Position numbers and translations under genes: made by a program | The notes under the pieces: model-generated | The model's database searches: none | Seen by the model: the letters and a program-made list of their open reading frames with translations, nothing else | Told to the model about the DNA's origin: nothing | NCBI GenBank assembly: GCA_030531165.1 | Contig: JAUNOI010000014.1 | Span: 7,026-40,906, forward strand | DNA: 33,881 nt | Reading direction: 5' to 3' | Source of the DNA: Lachnospiraceae bacterium | Lineage (GTDB): Bacteria > Bacillota > Clostridia > Lachnospirales > Lachnospiraceae | In this document: positions 26,759 through 33,881 of the stretch, piece by piece | How the letters are laid out: the number at the start of each line of letters is the position of its first letter | Position numbering within the stretch: position 1 is the first letter of the stretch

Positions 26759-29062
26759 TTATGAAATTCCGCATCTTTGCTCATCGTAAGTGATTCGGCT
26801 TAATAATTCCTGCTGAACTTCCGGCGTCAGATTGACAAAGACTGCAGAGAAACCGCTGACACGCACGATCAAGTTCGGATACTTTTCCGGATGATCAACC
26901 GCATCTTCCAATGTCGCTTTATCCACAACGGTTACCATCAGATGGCATCCTCTTTTTCTGAAAAAATACGTCTTCATCAGAATCTTAATGATTTCTCTAT
27001 TCTGATTAAACATTGTCGGCGAAAATTTAATATTCTGAACAGATCCCGCATGATATTTTGCATCAAATTTTGCGATTGAATTTAGCATTGCAGTCGGACC
27101 ATTTTTATCTGCACCGCCCTGAGGGTTATTCGCCGGATTCAGATATACGCCGTCCAATCTGCCATCAGGAGAAGCCGCCGTCGTCAATCCCCATTCCGTA
27201 TTCAGCTGATTGTTGCTGATTACGATCAGAAAATACTGCATTCCTGCTTCAATTCCACGGTCACGAATACCTTTTGCAACATATTCATATACCTGATTCG
27301 CCATTTCATCCGCTGTTTCCAAATCATTTCCATATTTATCGCAGGCAAGGCAGTCCTGCCTGATGATCTCATATCCTTCAAAGTTTGCTAAAACTGCCTG
27401 ATGAAGTTGTTCCAATGTATATTTCTTTCGGTTAAATACCAAATCTTTGATTGCCCAGAGGGAATCGGAAACATTTATATTACCATATGTTTCACACGTT
27501 CCGCCGAGGTAATGGACGCCGCCGTCCAATAACGCCTTACCTTTGCCGATACAGTCATCCATTAAGATGCTCGTAAACAGAAATCCAACCTCATCATTCA
27601 TAATCTGATAAGAACGGTACTGTCCCATAATGGATAAATCCATGTAATAATCCAAAAACCGTTTGTAACCGTTAAAAAATTCATCAAATGTCCTGTAAGA
27701 AGATACCGGTGGAATCTTGCAACCACCGGATTTATCTTTGCCGTCTTCCGGATCGATACCTTCGTTCATGAAAATCGTTAATATTTTTAAAAGATTGATA
27801 CAGATATTCGGCGTTCCGGTACTCTTACCCTGAATAACAAATTCTGTACATCCAAACGGAACATATTGTTTTGCATCTTCTTCCGGAATCCGCATACCGT
27901 AGGCAACAGCAGGAACATTGACAGCATCATTATATAAAGTCGGATAAGTCGCTCCGACTCCGAGAGCATCCAATGCTTCATCCCAAATCTGCTCCGAAGT
28001 GCTTTCATCAAACCGCAGAGTAAACTGAGGTTCTACATATCTTGTATTTTTTGCGACCTTCATCGCAATATGAAGAAAGACGTCCGCTTCCTTCGGATGT
28101 TTTCTTCCCTGTCCGCCGACGATGATTCGACCATTGACCGTGGTACGGCGGTTTTCGATCATCGTCCATAACGCATGAAGATATTGATAACCTTCTTCTT
28201 CTGTCAGGCGTCCTTCTTCCATATCTTTTACAAGAAACGGTCCCAGATAATCGTCGAGTCTGCCATAATTGATCGCACCGGATAATAATGCATACAGCCA
28301 GATCAACTGCAGTGCCTGTGGAAATGTCTCCGGTACATCGGTTTTTATTTTTTCCAGATCATCCGCCATTCGAAGCAATTCAAATCTGCGCTTTCCATTT
28401 GCTTTCTTGCTCTGTCCGAGCGCTTTCTGTTTCAGTTCTTCTGCACTGTCTACAAAGATATCCAGGCATTGAAGCGATGCTTCATAAAAATGATTTTGCG
28501 GCGATGTTTTCAGTCCATCCGTAATCTCTTCACGTAGTCCTCCAATTCCTCTTTCAAGCAATTTGGGATAATCGAGCATCATTCCGGATAATCTTGCAGT
28601 GGCAATGAGCGGAAATCTCGTATCGATAAATCCGCCGAGCACATCGCCTTGCAATACCTTATTACAATAGATCGTCTTCACATCATGATCAAGCCAGTAC
28701 TCATAAAGAGCATCAACGCGTTTCTTTTCCGCTTCTGTTTCTAATTTTTCCTGAAAATCACGAAGTTTGCGGAATACACAGTAATGTCCGACTCCACCGA
28801 GAGAAGTTACGCAGCCAAAACCGATTGGAAGAAAATCCAGTCTTCCCGCAATCAAGTCCTGTTCTTCGATGCTTCGGAACATTCTCGGATATAACACTTT
28901 CAGACAATGCGCTTCTCTGATTTCCTTTGGCTGTCCGGCATTTTCTTTATGGACCCTTGTATATTCTTCCATAATTTCCAGCTGTTCCGTCCATGATTTC
29001 TCACAAGGAATCTTTACACTGATTTCTACATTTTGCGCGGTTTCTACGTTAAATCCTGCCAT
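26759..29062 (-). CDS. Glycyl radical enzyme of unknown substrate (pyruvate formate-lyase superfamily)
   Basis: A 767-residue protein with the full PFL-like barrel and C-terminal glycyl radical domain. The radical site is G737 in RVSGFSAVF, 30 residues from the end as usual. The thiyl Cys is C405 in FGCTEF. A single Cys followed by x-Glu resembles dehydratases and eliminases (GCVE in choline lyase and diol dehydratases) and rules out pyruvate formate-lyase itself, which has two adjacent Cys. The Thr in GCTE is unusual to me. The start is ATG 29062, six bases after GGAGGAG. It follows a NanE-like epimerase by 35 bp, and no activating radical SAM enzyme is in the window. The substrate may be a sugar or amino sugar derivative, but this is only inferred from the neighbour. 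Confidence 0.9.
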   Translation of the reverse strand: MAGFNVETAQNVEISVKIPCEKSWTEQLEIMEEYTRVHKENAGQPKEIREAHCLKVLYPRMFRSIEEQDLIAGRLDFLPIGFGCVTSLGGVGHYCVFRKLRDFQEKLETEAEKKRVDALYEYWLDHDVKTIYCNKVLQGDVLGGFIDTRFPLIATARLSGMMLDYPKLLERGIGGLREEITDGLKTSPQNHFYEASLQCLDIFVDSAEELKQKALGQSKKANGKRRFELLRMADDLEKIKTDVPETFPQALQLIWLYALLSGAINYGRLDDYLGPFLVKDMEEGRLTEEEGYQYLHALWTMIENRRTTVNGRIIVGGQGRKHPKEADVFLHIAMKVAKNTRYVEPQFTLRFDESTSEQIWDEALDALGVGATYPTLYNDAVNVPAVAYGMRIPEEDAKQYVPFGCTEFVIQGKSTGTPNICINLLKILTIFMNEGIDPEDGKDKSGGCKIPPVSSYRTFDEFFNGYKRFLDYYMDLSIMGQYRSYQIMNDEVGFLFTSILMDDCIGKGKALLDGGVHYLGGTCETYGNINVSDSLWAIKDLVFNRKKYTLEQLHQAVLANFEGYEIIRQDCLACDKYGNDLETADEMANQVYEYVAKGIRDRGIEAGMQYFLIVISNNQLNTEWGLTTAASPDGRLDGVYLNPANNPQGGADKNGPTAMLNSIAKFDAKYHAGSVQNIKFSPTMFNQNREIIKILMKTYFFRKRGCHLMVTVVDKATLEDAVDHPEKYPNLIVRVSGFSAVFVNLTPEVQQELLSRITYDEQRCGIS

Positions 29063-29097
29063 AATTCTCTCCTCCATGATTTTTTCATTCTATATCA

Positions 29098-29838
29098 TTA
29101 GTGCTTTGCCCGTTCTGCATCTCTCCAGTTATCCTGATATCCCGATAACAGATCGACGAATCGTTTTGCTGTCAGATGCGGTCTTGTAATCGCACTACCG
29201 ACAACAACTGCATCTGCTCCTAAAAACATACATTTCATTGCATCTTCCGGTGTATAGATATGACCTTCCATCATAATGCTGACCTGATCTCCGAGTTCTC
29301 TACACATCTGTGCAAACATTCTCATATCCGGTTCTTCGATATGTGCTGTTTCTGCGGTATAGCCATATAAAGTCGGTGCAACAATATCGGCTCCCATTTC
29401 AGCAGCTCTTCTTGCTTCTTCCAAATTAGAAACATCAGCAAAAATCGGTGCTTCCGGAATCTCTTTCTTAACCTCTGCGAGCAACTCATAAGCAGGACGA
29501 CCCTCATGGTTGATCTGTGAAGTACAGTCTAATGCGATAATATCCGCTCCTGCTTCCCAAACCTGTTTACATGCCTCCAAGGTCGGTGTAATAAATACAT
29601 CCGTATCATCATGCCAGATTTTGTATAATCCGATGATTGGAAGATCAACTTCCGCTTTGATCGCTGCAATTTGTTCAGGGCTGTTTGCCCGGATGCCGAC
29701 TGCTCCTGCCCATTTTGCTGCTTTTGCCATTATGACAACCATATCGTCCGTGTGGATCGGATCGTCCGGCTGTGTCTGACAAGATACAATTAAACCTTTC
29801 ATAGAATCGATCAGTGCTTTCTTTTCCTGTTTATTCAT
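29098..29838 (-). CDS. NanE-like N-acylglucosamine-6-phosphate 2-epimerase (divergent)
   Basis: A 246-residue TIM barrel resembling NanE, which interconverts N-acetylmannosamine-6-phosphate and N-acetylglucosamine-6-phosphate. Kept features: KGLIVSCQ at the N-terminus, R50 in GIRAN, K73 (in GLYK), E191 in MEGHIYTPE and the phosphate-binding AVVVGSAITRP. Changed: the KRD after the catalytic Lys is KIWHDD, and the substrate loop normally like DATxRxRPDG reads DCTSQINHEG. It may therefore act on a different hexosamine or sugar phosphate. The start has AAGGAG eight bases upstream. First gene of an operon with the glycyl radical enzyme, divergent from an AraC regulator. No nanA, nanK or nagA is present in the window. 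Confidence 0.85.
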   Translation of the reverse strand: MNKQEKKALIDSMKGLIVSCQTQPDDPIHTDDMVVIMAKAAKWAGAVGIRANSPEQIAAIKAEVDLPIIGLYKIWHDDTDVFITPTLEACKQVWEAGADIIALDCTSQINHEGRPAYELLAEVKKEIPEAPIFADVSNLEEARRAAEMGADIVAPTLYGYTAETAHIEEPDMRMFAQMCRELGDQVSIMMEGHIYTPEDAMKCMFLGADAVVVGSAITRPHLTAKRFVDLLSGYQDNWRDAERAKH

Positions 29839-29984: not shown

Positions 29985-30028
29985 ACCCGGATGAAACACA
30001 CTTTGCGCATTTCACCGGTTTACATGTG
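29985..30028. repeat. Partial copy of the composite repeat, in the araC-like leader
   Basis: About 33 of 44 bases match 7714-7757, including TGAAACAC, TGCG, TTTCA and CGGTT. It keeps the hairpin (CCGG-TGAAA with TTTCA-CCGG). It lies in the untranslated leader, between the predicted transcription start and the ribosome binding site of the AraC gene. Confidence 0.6.
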
Positions 30029-30071
30029 CGAATTAATTTGTAAACAAAATTTCATTTCAGGAGACAGTTTT

Positions 30072-30917
30072 ATGATATGCAGAGAACGCGGTGTAACAGG
30101 ACAATCTCAATATTTCTTCTTTTCACCATCCGATAGTTTTTTAGAACACAATTACGGAATTATCAATTGCGGGCATTTTTACTGTAGATTTGGATACCGG
30201 ATTGAACGCGAAGGCAATGCATTTCCGCTCTTTGTCTTAGTTATCGATGGAGAATTCCATCTAACATATGATGACAAATATTATATCGGATCAAAGGGAG
30301 ATATTTTGCTAATCGACTGTTCTAAACCGCACACCTACTATGTTGAAACAAACTGTGAATTTTTGTATTTTCATTTTGCAGGTAATTCTGCCTATGAAGT
30401 CGCTTCTTCGCTCGTCATTAAGAATGCATCTCCGGTCTTTCGGATTTCCGGCGGTGATCAGCTGCGCCGCATTTTAGACCATACGCTATCAAAACTTTAT
30501 GATTCCAAGCCTGTCGGCGATGTGGAACTTTCCTGTCTCGCATACCGCTGTTTATGCACCCTGCAGGCGGAGGATGATATTTTCACAGTTGAAGACAGCC
30601 ATCCAAGCGATGTAGTCAATCGAACAATGACTTATATTAAGGAACATCTCGATCATAAATTCACGCTTTCTGAACTTGCCGAACAGGTCAATATGAGTGA
30701 CTATTATTTTGCTCATATATTTAAAAAAGAGACCGGCATATCGCCGATCGAATATGCCTCACAGACAAAGATCAACTATGCAAAATCCATTTTAAAGACA
30801 TCGGAAACTTCGATCAGCGAGATCACGGATATGCTCGGTTACAGTTCTAATGCAAGCTTTATAAACGCATTTAAAAAACGGGTCGGAATATCTCCCGCCC
30901 GTTTTCGGAAAAGTTAA
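30072..30917 (+). CDS. AraC-family transcriptional regulator
   Basis: A 281-residue regulator. The N-terminal ~150 residues form a cupin-like sensor (LTYDDKYYIGSKGDILLIDCSKPHTYYVE). The C-terminal pair of helix-turn-helix motifs is clear: FTLSELAEQVNMSDYYFAHIFKKETG and the second, ISEITDMLGYSSNASFINAFKKRVG followed by ISPARFRK. The chosen start (ATG 30072, protein MICRERG) has CAGGAGA seven bases upstream. A frame beginning at 29991 would translate a repeat hairpin and lacks a ribosome binding site. Divergent from the NanE-like/glycyl radical operon, which it probably activates; its stop codon overlaps that of the converging glycosyltransferase-synthetase gene. Confidence 0.92.
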   Translation: MICRERGVTGQSQYFFFSPSDSFLEHNYGIINCGHFYCRFGYRIEREGNAFPLFVLVIDGEFHLTYDDKYYIGSKGDILLIDCSKPHTYYVETNCEFLYFHFAGNSAYEVASSLVIKNASPVFRISGGDQLRRILDHTLSKLYDSKPVGDVELSCLAYRCLCTLQAEDDIFTVEDSHPSDVVNRTMTYIKEHLDHKFTLSELAEQVNMSDYYFAHIFKKETGISPIEYASQTKINYAKSILKTSETSISEITDMLGYSSNASFINAFKKRVGISPARFRKS

Positions 30918-32491
30918 ATAATCTTCTTTTTGATTGCCTGCATCCGCTGATCTAAGGATGCGCTGATTTCAGCGCATTCTCCCAGTTCCATTGCCAAAAG
31001 ATGCATTTGTTCTTCCGACAGATTTTTCTTATAGCGGAGCTTATGTTCCAAACTTGCCCAACAGTCCATCGAAAGCGTACGAATCTGCACTTCAACTTTC
31101 ATATTGCGTTTTTCTTCCTGTAAAAAGATCGGAATTTCTATGATCAGATGAAGACTTCGATATCCGCTCGGTTTTGGATTTTTAATATAATCCTTTACCT
31201 CGATCAGATAGATATCATCCTGTCTTAAAAGCGCGTCCGCAAGCATATAGACATCATCCTGAAAAGAGCAGATCACACGAATACCAGCGATATCCCGGAT
31301 GTTTTCTTCTATCGCATCCAAAGATAACGAAAGATCCTTTGTACGTATTTTCCGAAGAAGGCTGTCCATGGATTTTACCCTTGATTTGATATTCTCAATC
31401 GGATTTCTGTCATATTGCAGTGAATATTCCTCATTTAAAACTTTAAACTTGGTTTCTACCTCCATAATAGCACAGCGATAATACGTCATCATGCGCCGAA
31501 AGGGTTCGTTATTCGAATTAAAAGAATCCAGAAATTCATCCGATAACAACGTATCCTTGATCACCTTTTGCTGCTTTTGTTCAATCATGCGTCCAATCTG
31601 CTCAACTTTATGAGGAATCGGAAATACCGGTTTTTCTGTTCCGTCCACTCCGGTTTCACGCGCATTCTTTTCCAAAGGTTCCGTTCCAGGATCGAGTTCC
31701 TGCTTTAATTCTTTATAAAATATATCCAGCTTTCCGATATAATTTTTGTTCCAAGGTTTATTTCTGCCAAAATAGTGGATAATAACGCTGTTTTTCCGTA
31801 CCCAGTTAACATCGATTTTCTCATTCTCAACTTTTGCATTGTGCATCAAAAGAATTCTGTCATTGATATTGTATTTCAGCGTATCGATGCTTTTTATCTG
31901 ATTGCCGTATAATGCAGTAATCACATCCTGATCCGGCAGCATCAGGCTCTGTCTTTTTTCAATCGCATATTGTAATACTTCCGCTGTATCCTGTTCTTTT
32001 CTTAATTTTTCGAGATTCATCAGCAAAATTCCGCTGTTATAATAGTCGTTGTCCTCTTTGATTCCAAGCCTTACCTGATTGATCTTCTTCATCACCTTGC
32101 CCACATGCGTGCAGGCGCAAAAATAATCATCTTCAAAATCCGTATCATACAACTCTTCTAACGAATTAATGACAACTATATCTCCATCCAGATACAAAAT
32201 CCGATCAAGATGTTCCGGCAGAAACTGCGCCGCAAAAATACGATAATAAATCAACTTCGGATAGCGCTTGTTTTCCGGAAACTCGGAAAAAAGTGTCGGG
32301 TCAATATAAATAAAATCAATCACGGCTCTGTTGCCAATCTTGCTTTTAAAATCGTCCATCTTCTTCTGATCGCAGTCAGAATGAAAGATATAAATATGAT
32401 ATCCATCTTCCACAGGAAATCTTAAAAATGACTGAATACATTCGTAAATATGTCTCAAATAATTTCCATCTGTTGTAAACAATATGTTCAT
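30914..32491 (-). CDS. Fusion of GT8 glycosyltransferase and RelQ-type (p)ppGpp synthetase
   Basis: One continuous 525-codon frame encodes two complete enzymes. Residues 1-265 are a family 8 retaining glycosyltransferase: DGD (102-104, metal/UDP-sugar), NSGILLMNL (152-160), DQD (187-189) and H239...KPW (245-247). After a low-complexity linker (about 268-292), residues 293-525 resemble the small alarmone synthetase RelQ/YjbM: SRVK (R371, K373), RDIAGIRV (D400, metal), SGYRS (443-446), VEVQIRT (E467, Q469, R471) and H483 in SLEHKLRYK. No HD hydrolase domain is present. All catalytic residues I can check are kept in both halves. No signal peptide or membrane span, so it acts in the cytoplasm. 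It starts 19 bp after an LRR lipoprotein gene, with GGAG nine bases before the ATG. I know of no described protein with this combination, but this has not been checked against a database. Confidence 0.92.
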   Translation of the reverse strand: MNILFTTDGNYLRHIYECIQSFLRFPVEDGYHIYIFHSDCDQKKMDDFKSKIGNRAVIDFIYIDPTLFSEFPENKRYPKLIYYRIFAAQFLPEHLDRILYLDGDIVVINSLEELYDTDFEDDYFCACTHVGKVMKKINQVRLGIKEDNDYYNSGILLMNLEKLRKEQDTAEVLQYAIEKRQSLMLPDQDVITALYGNQIKSIDTLKYNINDRILLMHNAKVENEKIDVNWVRKNSVIIHYFGRNKPWNKNYIGKLDIFYKELKQELDPGTEPLEKNARETGVDGTEKPVFPIPHKVEQIGRMIEQKQQKVIKDTLLSDEFLDSFNSNNEPFRRMMTYYRCAIMEVETKFKVLNEEYSLQYDRNPIENIKSRVKSMDSLLRKIRTKDLSLSLDAIEENIRDIAGIRVICSFQDDVYMLADALLRQDDIYLIEVKDYIKNPKPSGYRSLHLIIEIPIFLQEEKRNMKVEVQIRTLSMDCWASLEHKLRYKKNLSEEQMHLLAMELGECAEISASLDQRMQAIKKKII

Positions 32492-32510
32492 CTTTTGTTA
32501 CTCCAATCAC

Positions 32511-33797
32511 TTATTTGTTCATTTTTTCTTCCAGTTTTTTTAATTCTATCTGATTATAGGTATTCCAACTTTCTACATGATCGTAACAATCATTGTCCTT
32601 ATACCATTCTTTATAGCTGTCCTCTGCATTTTTTGGTACATATATATTCGCGGAAATTGGAAGAGGACAGCTGCCATCTTTTACATCTGATACTTTTGGC
32701 GGTATTCCACCTGTAAAATATACTTTTTTTAGCATTTCATTATAAGAAAAACTTAATCCTGTTCCTCTTACTTCTTCTAAATTTCTGGAAAGAACTACAA
32801 TACGCACATCTCCACCGGCAATGCTGTATGTATCATCCAGCTTTCGAATCCGATTGCTGATTCGCAGAAAACCCTTTTTGTTTGGCATGGCAACCACTAA
32901 ACGGTCATCACCTTTTGCATAGATACACTGTCCTGAAATTGCAAAATTTTTATTATCCTTTGCTATTTTTATATTCTTGATATTCTCATTTTCCAATGCC
33001 TGACTGCCGATATTCTTTACCGTCGATGAAATCAGAACATTTTGGGCCCCACTGTTTATAAACGCTCTATTTCCAATCGTAATCACACCCTCTGGGATCT
33101 TAACTGTCTTTTTCTCCGCAACAACAAAGATTAGCTCGTGCTTATTCTTTATCATCAACATTCCGTCAATCACTTCATACTTTTCATTCTCTGAAGAAAT
33201 CTTCAGCGTTTTCAATGCAGAACAATCCTCCAATGCATCTGCATGAAATGAATCAAGATTTTTTGGAAGCGTTACTGACTTCAAACGTTCACAGCCGTAG
33301 AAAGTTTCCGATTTTAATTTGTGGACGCCATCCGGTATTTTAATAGAAGACAAATACCGAAGTCCGCTAAAACAGGTAGCTTGTATCTCGGTTACAGAAT
33401 CCGGAATCGTGACTTTTGTAATCCCTTCTAATTTTTTATCATATCCATCAATATTATGCACCCGTTCAACTCTAATTCCAAATATATTTTTCCTGAATTC
33501 CGAAGGCTCTGATAACTCTGCATATCCAATACGGGTTACTTTCTTCCCCTCTATCTCCGATGGAAGCTCAAGATCAGAGGTATCTCCTTTTTCTTTATCT
33601 ACATCGATCAAATAGATCCAGCATTTGCTTTCATCCCCCGATACATAAGCATGAAAAGTAAACGCCCCGGATTTCATTTCTACAGCTTCCTCATAATTCC
33701 ACGCCTCTTTTTTTGACTTGGCCGTTCCATTCGAACATCCAATCGCAACAACTGCTAAAAATGTGAAAAACAGCGGTATCAACCATCTCTTTTCCAT
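32511..33797 (-). CDS. Leucine-rich-repeat surface lipoprotein (BspA-type)
   Basis: A 428-residue lipoprotein: MEKRW start, hydrophobic core and lipobox VAIGC (Cys about 21). Several LRR_5/BspA-type repeats follow, of the form IPDSVTEIQATCFSGL, IPDGVHKLKSETFYGC and IPEGVITIGNRAFINS, each about 23 residues, interrupted by a middle block (about 190-270) with weaker repeats. Such proteins bind host or microbial surfaces, but no ligand can be named. The ATG at 33797 has AGGAG eight bases upstream; two in-frame GTG codons further upstream overlap the ribosome binding site. First gene of an apparent operon with the GT8-RelQ fusion. A TATAAT-like box lies at 33849-33854 (minus) with a poor -35, a possible promoter cut close to the window edge. 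Confidence 0.87.
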   Translation of the reverse strand: MEKRWLIPLFFTFLAVVAIGCSNGTAKSKKEAWNYEEAVEMKSGAFTFHAYVSGDESKCWIYLIDVDKEKGDTSDLELPSEIEGKKVTRIGYAELSEPSEFRKNIFGIRVERVHNIDGYDKKLEGITKVTIPDSVTEIQATCFSGLRYLSSIKIPDGVHKLKSETFYGCERLKSVTLPKNLDSFHADALEDCSALKTLKISSENEKYEVIDGMLMIKNKHELIFVVAEKKTVKIPEGVITIGNRAFINSGAQNVLISSTVKNIGSQALENENIKNIKIAKDNKNFAISGQCIYAKGDDRLVVAMPNKKGFLRISNRIRKLDDTYSIAGGDVRIVVLSRNLEEVRGTGLSFSYNEMLKKVYFTGGIPPKVSDVKDGSCPLPISANIYVPKNAEDSYKEWYKDNDCYDHVESWNTYNQIELKKLEEKMNK

Positions 33798-33881
33798 ATT
33801 CACCACTCCTAATTATCATTTTTTGTCAATATTTTTAATATTAACTCAATTATACACGATTTTTTTGTTTGAATTGTGATC

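Follow-up and report, generated by a model that had tools for sequence, protein, structure and literature searches.

Small alarmone synthetases are usually regarded as lone enzymes under transcriptional control. The first-pass annotation of a 33,881-nt stretch of Lachnospiraceae DNA (the window) placed one of them behind a GT8 glycosyltransferase in a single uninterrupted frame, which raises the questions of whether such a gene is real, which enzymes it joins and what the joined protein may do.

One reading frame in two species of the genus

The gene occupies 30914..32491 on the minus strand, where the ORF list gives one open frame with an ATG start, 525 amino acids and a stop codon, and no internal stop. 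A GGAG ribosome-binding motif (32501..32504, minus strand) lies in front of the ATG with a gap of 9 nt. Pfam Glyco_transf_8 matches residues 2-249 (E 1.3e-38, 133.5 bits against a cut-off of 24.3) and RelA_SpoT residues 370-490 (E 2.5e-32, 111.9 bits against a cut-off of 27), so that the annotated two-domain frame holds. All on the minus strand, the GT8 half comprises residues 1-265 (31697..32491), the linker residues 266-296 (31604..31696) and the synthetase half residues 297-525 (30917..31603), including the N-terminal extension found in stand-alone relatives. Internal ATGs at residues 302, 334, 335 and 343 of the synthetase half show by eye no good ribosome-binding motif; a separate synthetase product may arise from these poorly equipped candidates. 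The G+C content of the gene (0.380, window 0.408) gives no clear compositional signal of foreign origin.

A full-length homologue was found in a second species of the genus (G152:C4, 550 aa, 73% identity, aligned over residues 1-523), with flanking genes that differ from those in the window. Because this second genome carries an independent full-length fusion, we regard the fusion as neither an assembly artefact nor a chance product; the end-to-end match rules out an assembly chimera or a missed stop, and it leaves no place in G152 for the stop or frameshift between residues 265 and 295 that the annotation had named as the sign of two separate genes. Alignment with G152 located a variable linker where the annotation had put it, at residues 265-295: 19 positions of the linker align, 6 of them identical (32%), and the G152 linker is 12 residues shorter. 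Identity is 189/265 (71%) over residues 1-265 and 180/229 (79%) over residues 297-525. By the NG86 count, synonymous differences between the two fusions have reached saturation (pS 0.83-0.88), while pN is 0.173 for residues 1-262, 0.112 for residues 331-525 and 0.368 for residues 263-330, that is, the linker plus the N-terminal extension of the synthetase. Judged from these sequences, both halves have been under constraint since the two fusions parted.

Stand-alone GT8 proteins end where the linker starts, and stand-alone synthetases begin at about residue 297. The fusion may thus be two complete genes joined, a view we hold tentatively, with the same not quite even confidence as the joint explanation of which it forms part. 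Each half of the window fusion is the sister of the matching half in G152 at 100/100, in the synthetase tree and in the GT8 trees, which fits a single fusion event.

The genes around the fusion give little orientation. Upstream, at 32511..33806 (minus strand), a BspA-type leucine-rich repeat (LRR) protein whose N-terminus looks by eye like that of a lipoprotein is separated from the fusion by a gap of 19 nt and is a possible operon partner in the window; it is not beside the fusion in G152. A convergent AraC-family regulator, identified by domain search (29991..30917, plus strand), overlaps the 3' end of the fusion by 4 nt and is a neighbor only. A look for a conserved neighborhood gave none: the best homologues of the LRR protein (G153:C83, G152:C27) and of the AraC regulator (G152:C52) lie on contigs other than that of the G152 fusion. 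Behind the G152 fusion, and overlapping it, comes a small gene that matches DUF4364 below the cut-off (22.3 against 26.9 bits) and looks MarR-like by eye. As the two fusions have different neighbors, the context yields no pathway.

The synthetase half is RelP-type

The annotation had called the synthetase RelQ-type. Against solved relatives the synthetase half scores 185.2 bits with YwaC, 176.2 with SaRelP and 123.9 with RelQ/YjbM. In the synthetase tree a 100/100 branch separates YjbM and five RelQ-like enzymes of the genus from the fusions, SaRelP and YwaC, although the drawn midpoint root sets YwaC beside the YjbM/RelQ-like group and several branches are long; the fusion synthetase is nested among stand-alone RelP-like enzymes. 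The G-loop proline, SaRelP P146, which distinguishes RelP from RelQ (PMC5794853), is present as P439 and occurs in 22 of 23 rows, missing only in the RelQ-like L002, and the fusion lies outside the group formed by YjbM and L002. One score is contrary: the best NCBIfam model is YjbM, with 165.9 bits far below its cut-off of 320, and there is no RelP model among the five matches. Because scores against solved relatives, the tree and the published G-loop proline agree, the synthetase half is assigned by sequence to the RelP type (YwaC/SAS2), and the bit scores, the 100/100 branch and P439 rule out the RelQ subtype.

The catalytic motifs lie on the minus strand and, as annotated, are intact. RVK (residues 371-373, 31373..31381) holds R371 and K373, the counterparts of the ATP-binding SaRelP R78 and K80 (mapping via PMC5794853); D400 (31292..31294) corresponds to the Mg ligand D107, and H483 (31043..31045) to H190 at the ATP ribose, each in 23/23 rows. 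The G-loop PKPSGYRS (residues 439-446, 31154..31177) contains Y444, aligned with the guanosine-binding SaRelP Y151 (PMC5794853), and EVQIR (residues 467-471, 31079..31093) contains the Mg ligand E467 (SaRelP E174), with E467, Q469 and R471 in 23/23 rows. In total, 19 of 20 synthetase columns tested are invariant in 23/23 rows, and 9 of the 10 SaRelP substrate residues (R78, K80, S84, K88, R91, D107, R112, Y151, E174, H190) are identical at an offset of 293. The exception is T384, which replaces the phosphate-contacting R91 in both fusions and in none of 20 relatives. Positions 384 and 474 pass our filter for fusion-specific residues (both fusions agree, 0/20 relatives share the residue and at least 12 agree on another). 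A fusion-specific loss of a catalytic residue at T384 is doubtful, as only 12 of the 20 relatives carry R there, the other 8 having D, K, S or V.

The fusion thus has in common with RelP/YwaC/SAS2 of S. aureus and B. subtilis (6ewz, 6fgk) the whole synthetase domain, the G-loop Tyr and the RelP proline, whereas known RelP enzymes, characterized as homotetramers, are stand-alone and the fusion has a preceding GT8 enzyme and T384 in place of R91. Reports on the regulation of RelP disagree: the B. subtilis enzyme showed no activity when assayed in PMC5794853, and PMC10117726, which ties RelP to cell-wall stress, cites (p)ppGpp as an inhibitor and Zn2+ as an activator. Besides the fusion, the genome of the window encodes a long bifunctional Rel, whose hydrolase and synthetase domains share a single frame of 768 codons, a small protein with a hydrolase domain, and a RelP-like and a RelQ-like enzyme of its own; alongside these RSH genes, the fusion is an accessory enzyme.

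The annotation had also proposed that the fold modifies another nucleotide or an acceptor bound by the GT8 half. Related enzymes act on such targets, exported ones making (p)ppApp and toxic ones modifying tRNA CCA ends according to PMC12691689 and PMC11782079, but pyrophosphorylation of an adenine nucleotide, a tRNA end or the GT8 acceptor appears highly improbable for a RelP-type sequence with the motif set retained. The proposal draws no support from the sequence, in which the Mg residues, most of the ATP residues and Tyr444, which stacks on the guanine, fit a GDP/GTP pyrophosphokinase.

A role as toxic or defence effector, with the GT8 half as immunity or trigger domain, is likewise very unlikely. 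In the synthetase half, residues 301-479 give a match to the PADLOC candidate PDC-S33 (87.6 bits), some phage records contain stand-alone relatives, and GT8 as antitoxin would be compatible with the lack of an adjacent toxSAS antitoxin at the window locus. Against this, the synthetase is nested among stand-alone RelP-like enzymes, in a tree without toxSAS rows, and the neighbors are the LRR protein and the convergent AraC regulator. No record covering 80% of the query was among the matches listed (best 10 of 45 phage and best 10 of 155 plasmid records). The longest plasmid matches listed (H13 and H15, rounded to about 80%) come from E. coli and share 24-25% identity; at one of them the annotation names glycosyltransferase and rfaY, and the other is unannotated. 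Among viral contigs, 73 pattern stretches gave 0 relatives, a weak test as both patterns used came from the GT8 half only.

The GT8 half and its MarR-fused relatives

Membership of the N-terminal half in GT8 follows from the Glyco_transf_8 score above cut-off and the presence of DxD, DQD and H-G-K-P-W. Its PDB matches are 3tzt (E 3.5e-49) and LgtC (1g9r, E 2.9e-18), both GT8 by sequence with the same DxD, DQD and H-x-x-G-x-x-KPW elements. On the minus strand, the DxD motif DGD (residues 102-104, 32180..32188) has D102 and D104 in 16/16 rows, DQD (residues 187-189, 31925..31933) aligns with DQD of LgtC in 16/16 rows, and the conserved GT8 motif HYFGRNKPW (residues 239-247, 31751..31777) has H239, G242, K245 and W247 in 16/16 rows. 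Of 14 columns tested 12 are invariant in all 16 rows; D8 and N10 differ among relatives. A first 38-row alignment (A2) had misplaced GT8 tails and was left out of all counts. The best NCBIfam name, LPS galactosyltransferase, reaches 82.1 bits, far below the cut-off of 461.

The fused pair shares a 20-row GT8 clade (98/98) with proteins in which a MarR-type DNA-binding domain either follows the GT8 (L092, L093) or precedes it (L122), and in the sister species G153 a GT8 of the MarR-fused subclade stands in a run MarR - AI-2E transporter - GT8. Together with the MarR-like small gene overlapping the G152 fusion, this repeated link with regulators fits a sensing role, in which a UDP-sugar or acceptor in the GT8 pocket would switch the RelP half allosterically and the alarmone would report sugar-nucleotide or glycolipid status. 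We consider such a sensor unlikely: the GT8 catalytic motifs are retained, which a pure sensor would not need, the MarR fusions form a single subclade (100/98) that excludes the fused pair, and the poorly conserved linker, variable in length (by 12 residues) and sequence, argues against a rigid relay. Rather unlikely is also a form in which the GT8 clade would be a reusable 'glycan-status' module that, while glycosylating, reports substrate or acceptor supply to the attached output, MarR transcription or RelP (p)ppGpp.

A neighboring GT8 clade supplies a lead to the acceptor, perhaps a glycolipid. In L027 and L028 a GT8 of this clade is fused to an MGDG-synthase/GT28 module. A PlsC-type acyltransferase gene adjoins the GT8 in L028, with related ones in L027 and L032, and genes nearby encode an AMP-binding enzyme in L032 and a phospholipase-D-type protein in L029. 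In the larger GT8 tree these lipid-linked GT8 genes fall outside the clade of the fused GT8, in its sister clade, which counts against the lead; it slightly lowered our confidence in the bifunctional reading set out below and raised that in a functionally unlinked fusion. The sole PlsY neighbor (L087) stands beside a GT8 that is more distant still, and nearer GT8 relatives adjoin unrelated genes (Hsp90, CCA-transferase-like and, by eye, FtsH-like and aldehyde-dehydrogenase-like).

Rarity of the fusion and other partners

Two of 5 genomes of the genus carry the GT8-synthetase fusion, and a sample of 397 genomes from the family likewise yielded 2; GT8 and synthetase each also exist as separate genes. 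Eleven receiver-RelP fusions of 356-406 aa (L059, L062, L063, L079-L086) likewise carry an N-terminal partner on a related RelP-type synthetase, but here the partner is a response-regulator receiver; they form their own clade (100/97) in the synthetase tree and thus represent a separate fusion event. GDSL-lipase fusions of related synthetases (SAS-GDSL) were also found. Two Bacilli MAGs from rabbit (L029, L030) have a GT8 gene and a small alarmone synthetase gene separated by about 4 kb, and in L029 a confirmed two-component pair lies in the interval; this proximity is suggestive, but the synthetase stands on a long branch and the MAGs seem close kin.

The annotation described small alarmone synthetases as normally stand-alone or antitoxin-paired, an incomplete picture in view of the receiver-SAS and SAS-GDSL proteins and of RelZ (MS_RHII-RSD) of Mycobacterium smegmatis, a published dual-domain SAS with RNase HII and alarmone synthetase. 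RelZ has the same layout, with the second enzyme at the N-terminus and the synthetase at the C-terminus, but its RNase HII/DUF429 domain is absent from our protein, whose partner is GT8; the fusion is a further variant among the known dual-domain synthetases. In the literature searched, to which subscription papers, preprints and protein-architecture databases did not belong, we found no title on a GT8-alarmone synthetase or receiver-alarmone synthetase, a result that is not equal to absence from print.

With so rare and patchy a distribution, and with relatives of both modules joined to other partners, both modules may simply be fusion-prone, and the two enzymes could share promoter and polypeptide while each acts like its stand-alone relatives, functionally unlinked. 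We see this as possible, if on the unlikely side; set against it, the fusion stayed intact in two species and two gene neighborhoods despite saturated synonymous sites.

A putative bifunctional enzyme

Our preferred reading, held at slightly less than even confidence, is a functional bifunctional enzyme in which one polypeptide would glycosylate a surface or lipid acceptor and make (p)ppGpp; coupling and substrates are the conjectural parts. Against this reading count T384 in the synthetase, the variation at D8 and N10 of the GT8 and the disagreement over RelP regulation. The GT8 half would move sugar from a UDP-sugar, with retention as in GT8 enzymes, onto an acceptor in the envelope or the membrane, which could be a glycolipid, and the RelP half would pyrophosphorylate GDP/GTP with ATP to (p)ppGpp, presumably without stimulation by pppGpp, as reported for SaRelP. 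By analogy with RelP of other Firmicutes, which takes part in their response to cell-wall stress, control would be mainly via expression, and the fusion gene is predicted to be stress-induced. An expression-governed single polypeptide would deliver its two outputs, envelope glycosylation and growth slowdown, at a fixed ratio. A tie to sugar-nucleotide use or surface glycosylation is plausible from the domains joined.

The conserved GT8 fusion points to glycosylation as a concrete process tied by evolution to (p)ppGpp, and offers a one-protein system in which this coupling can be assayed. Taken with the receiver and lipase fusions, it suggests that small alarmone synthetases of the family are modular outputs placed on several partners. 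Change of the cell surface and slowdown of growth may be switched together; if the glycan-status reading were true, envelope glycosylation would set growth rate directly, in one protein and without a separate sensor.

The fusion gene and its counterpart in the genus

The fusion gene is a single frame of 525 codons on the minus strand of the window (30914-32491), with a GGAG motif preceding its ATG. Pfam matches far over their cut-offs were obtained for GT8 (residues 2-249, 133.5 bits) and RelA_SpoT (residues 370-490, 111.9 bits), and every catalytic residue named in the first-pass annotation lies, by sequence and alignment, where that annotation had placed it. The window comes from a genome in draft state, which is 85.5% complete and split into 149 contigs. 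One other of the five genus genomes, the window's own included, carries a full-length fusion of the same architecture (G152; 550 aa, 73% identity, aligned over residues 1-523), which bears out the single chain of GT8 and synthetase proposed earlier. A split between residues 265 and 295 in a related genome had been named as a sign of two separate genes; G152 instead encodes the fusion end to end. Its neighbors differ from those in the window: nitroreductase and TetR-type genes flank it at one end, and a small gene that matches DUF4364 below cut-off flanks it at the other, together with an EamA transporter. Because of this difference the two fusions are not copies of one error, and a shared assembly error was ruled out as their source. 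Elsewhere in the window, 26759-29838 (minus strand) holds a PFL-like glycyl radical enzyme of 772 aa, which adjoins an N-acetylmannosamine-6-phosphate epimerase-like gene and stays below cut-off for each of the 12 NCBIfam models that it matches.

The stand-alone GT8s shown end within about 10 residues of fusion position 265. In the nearest clade, stand-alone synthetases start at around position 297, and their N-terminal extension is kept in the fusion; judged by its sequence, the fusion is two complete genes joined. Identity between the two fusions amounts to 189/265 in the GT8 half, 6/19 aligned positions in the linker (266-296), which is 12 residues shorter in G152, and 180/229 in the synthetase half (297-525). 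A scripted Nei-Gojobori count on this pair gave saturated synonymous differences (pS 0.83-0.88) and a pN of 0.173 for residues 1-262, 0.368 for residues 263-330 (linker plus N-terminal extension of the synthetase) and 0.112 for residues 331-525. Because the motif sets are complete and selection acts on both halves, we argue for two predicted working enzymes.

The synthetase half is of the RelP type

Against solved structures the synthetase half scored 185.2 bits with B. subtilis YwaC (RelP), 176.2 bits with S. aureus RelP (SaRelP) and 123.9 bits with YjbM (RelQ). The fused pair are sisters in a 65-row synthetase tree (branch supports 100/100). Around them lie 25 stand-alone enzymes, of which 24 belong to the same family and one to a Clostridia MAG, and together these make up a 27-row group (99/97). 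A 100/100 branch cuts YjbM and five RelQ-like genus enzymes off from YwaC, SaRelP, the fusions and all else, in a tree with several long branches and some open forks whose midpoint root, as drawn, puts YwaC beside the YjbM/RelQ-like group. All five genomes of the genus encode, in addition, a RelP-like enzyme of their own (98/96). A proline in the G-loop (P146), present in RelP and absent from RelQ, makes stimulation by pppGpp unnecessary, according to Steinchen et al. 2018 (PMC5794853). The equivalent position in the fusion, P439, is proline in 22 of 23 rows and differs solely in the RelQ-like row. The first-pass annotation had called the synthetase RelQ-type; bit scores, tree side and P439 make it RelP instead, while the NCBIfam scan points the other way, naming YjbM, but far below its cut-off. 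Nine of ten SaRelP substrate residues named in the same paper are identical in the fusion at a constant offset of 293. SaRelP R91 corresponds to T384, a threonine found only in the two fusions; 12 of 20 relatives have R here.

Four RelA_SpoT domains are present in the window's genome: a 768-codon frame that joins RelA_SpoT to an HD_4 hydrolase domain (Rel), a RelQ-like and a RelP-like enzyme (both placed by the synthetase tree) and the fusion, which is therefore an extra alarmone enzyme. A second HD_4 domain (G000:C126:17091-17465, minus strand, locus L146) lies in a separate 186-codon frame, a candidate small alarmone hydrolase, and the cell is probably able to degrade the fusion's predicted (p)ppGpp product.

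Spread of the fusion

Searches with both fusions gave full-length matches in at least 2 of 397 family genomes, among the matches listed, and in 1/392, 1/391 and 1/398 genomes of the order, class and phylum samples, the lone match each time being the window's own genome; these samples overlap, at most three candidates were scored per genome, and at E-value limits of 1e-60 to 1e-85 a divergent fusion could escape. No phage or plasmid record among the matches listed covers 80% of the fusion query, and the best plasmid-record match listed for the synthetase half is from Lachnospira eligens (63.9%), which makes Lachnospiraceae the likely family. Ten named-contig loci found with six short peptide patterns, a search that may omit near kin of the window's genome, each encode one half and none a fused GT8 and synthetase.

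Other partners of the synthetase half

Among the matches listed, the family search yielded 15 frames of at least 350 codons: the two GT8-synthetase fusions, 11 receiver-RelP proteins, one RelP with a C-terminal GDSL lipase/acylhydrolase (Pfam; 483 aa, L018:1149-2600, genome G006) and one GT8 (L087), whose listed ORF has 334 aa and no second domain. The 11 receiver fusions are not a rate, because the loci were fetched for being long. They form one clade (100/97) from 11 genomes of the family, the architecture being Pfam-confirmed in all (L059:34-1116, L062:6954-8036, L063:227-1297, L081:1056-2138, L083:251-1354 and L086:1408-2628; on the minus strand L079:1576-2679, L080:1615-2706, L082:1666-2769, L084:1660-2808 and L085:1792-2871). 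By eye, no histidine kinase gene directly adjoins receiver-RelP in 8 of the 11 loci. In L059 genes for a GHKL kinase and a LytTR regulator lie as a pair one gene off, on the opposite strand. Receiver-RelP is a two-component protein, and its output would be (p)ppGpp itself. Two RelP-type synthetases end in C-terminal tails, of 119 residues (Lys/Glu-rich; L097:1468-2526, minus strand) and 103 residues (L098:1740-2750).

Relatives of the GT8 half and possible function

The best solved relative of the GT8 half is 3tzt (E 3.5e-49), with LgtC second. D102, D104, D187, Q188, D189, H239, G242, K245 and W247 are invariant in 16/16 rows; D8 and N10 vary. The fused pair are again sisters (100/100) in GT8 trees of 25 and 41 rows, and in the latter their nearest row, L091 (93/85), is a stand-alone GT8 from the same order but a different family. 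Both lie in a 20-row clade (98/98), which also holds a separate 5-row subclade (100/98) of three MarR fusions and two unfused members, the GT8 of the genus-mate G153 included. The MarR-type domain is C-terminal in L092:3607-4983 (minus strand) and L093:3362-4714 (plus strand), from one genus, and N-terminal in L122:1492-2811 (minus strand), from another class. When 236 genomes of the order were searched with GT8 alone, 22 gave a match: one is the window's fusion, one a MarR fusion (the L092 gene, in G518), and in the other 20 the frames span 222-358 codons, one of them cut by a contig end.

These MarR fusions support a more exciting but, in our view, unlikely explanation, in which the GT8 half senses and allosterically controls the synthetase half; the loose linker speaks against it. 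The reading we favor, tentatively and at slightly under an even chance, is that one induced polypeptide would serve envelope glycosylation through its GT8 half and yield (p)ppGpp through its RelP half. Induction would resemble that of RelP in other Firmicutes, which the cell-wall stress systems VraRS and WalKR switch on, according to a passage in PMC10117726. Outside the 20-row clade, sister-clade GT8 genes stand beside glycerolipid genes, in Bacilli, or form fusions with a glycolipid synthase (GT8 with MGDG synthase/GT28, 646 aa; L027:5480-7420 and L028:114-2054), and because of this association a lipid may be named as acceptor, as a first guess only; GT8 relatives nearer to the fused pair adjoin unrelated genes. 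A PlsC-type acyltransferase gene follows the L028 fusion and a related gene the L027 fusion. Two Bacilli MAGs have a GT8 within about 5 kb of a very divergent alarmone synthetase (L029:2921-8253, L030:6211-11240), a span that also holds a response regulator, a histidine kinase and a zinc metallopeptidase (domains checked in L029).

Small synthetases are in general single-domain according to Atkinson et al. 2011 (PMC3153485), who name as an exception those of some mycobacteria, which carry DUF429; these are apparently the same proteins as RelZ, which carries RNase HII in an account by Krishnan and Chatterji 2020 (PMC7591505). Part of a 2025 export paper (PMC12691689) adds fusions to secretion domains such as LXG. 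As synthetases with other partners are thus described and the word start 'glycosyl' does not occur in the main texts of these three papers, the GT8 fusion is a new form of dual-domain small alarmone synthetase.
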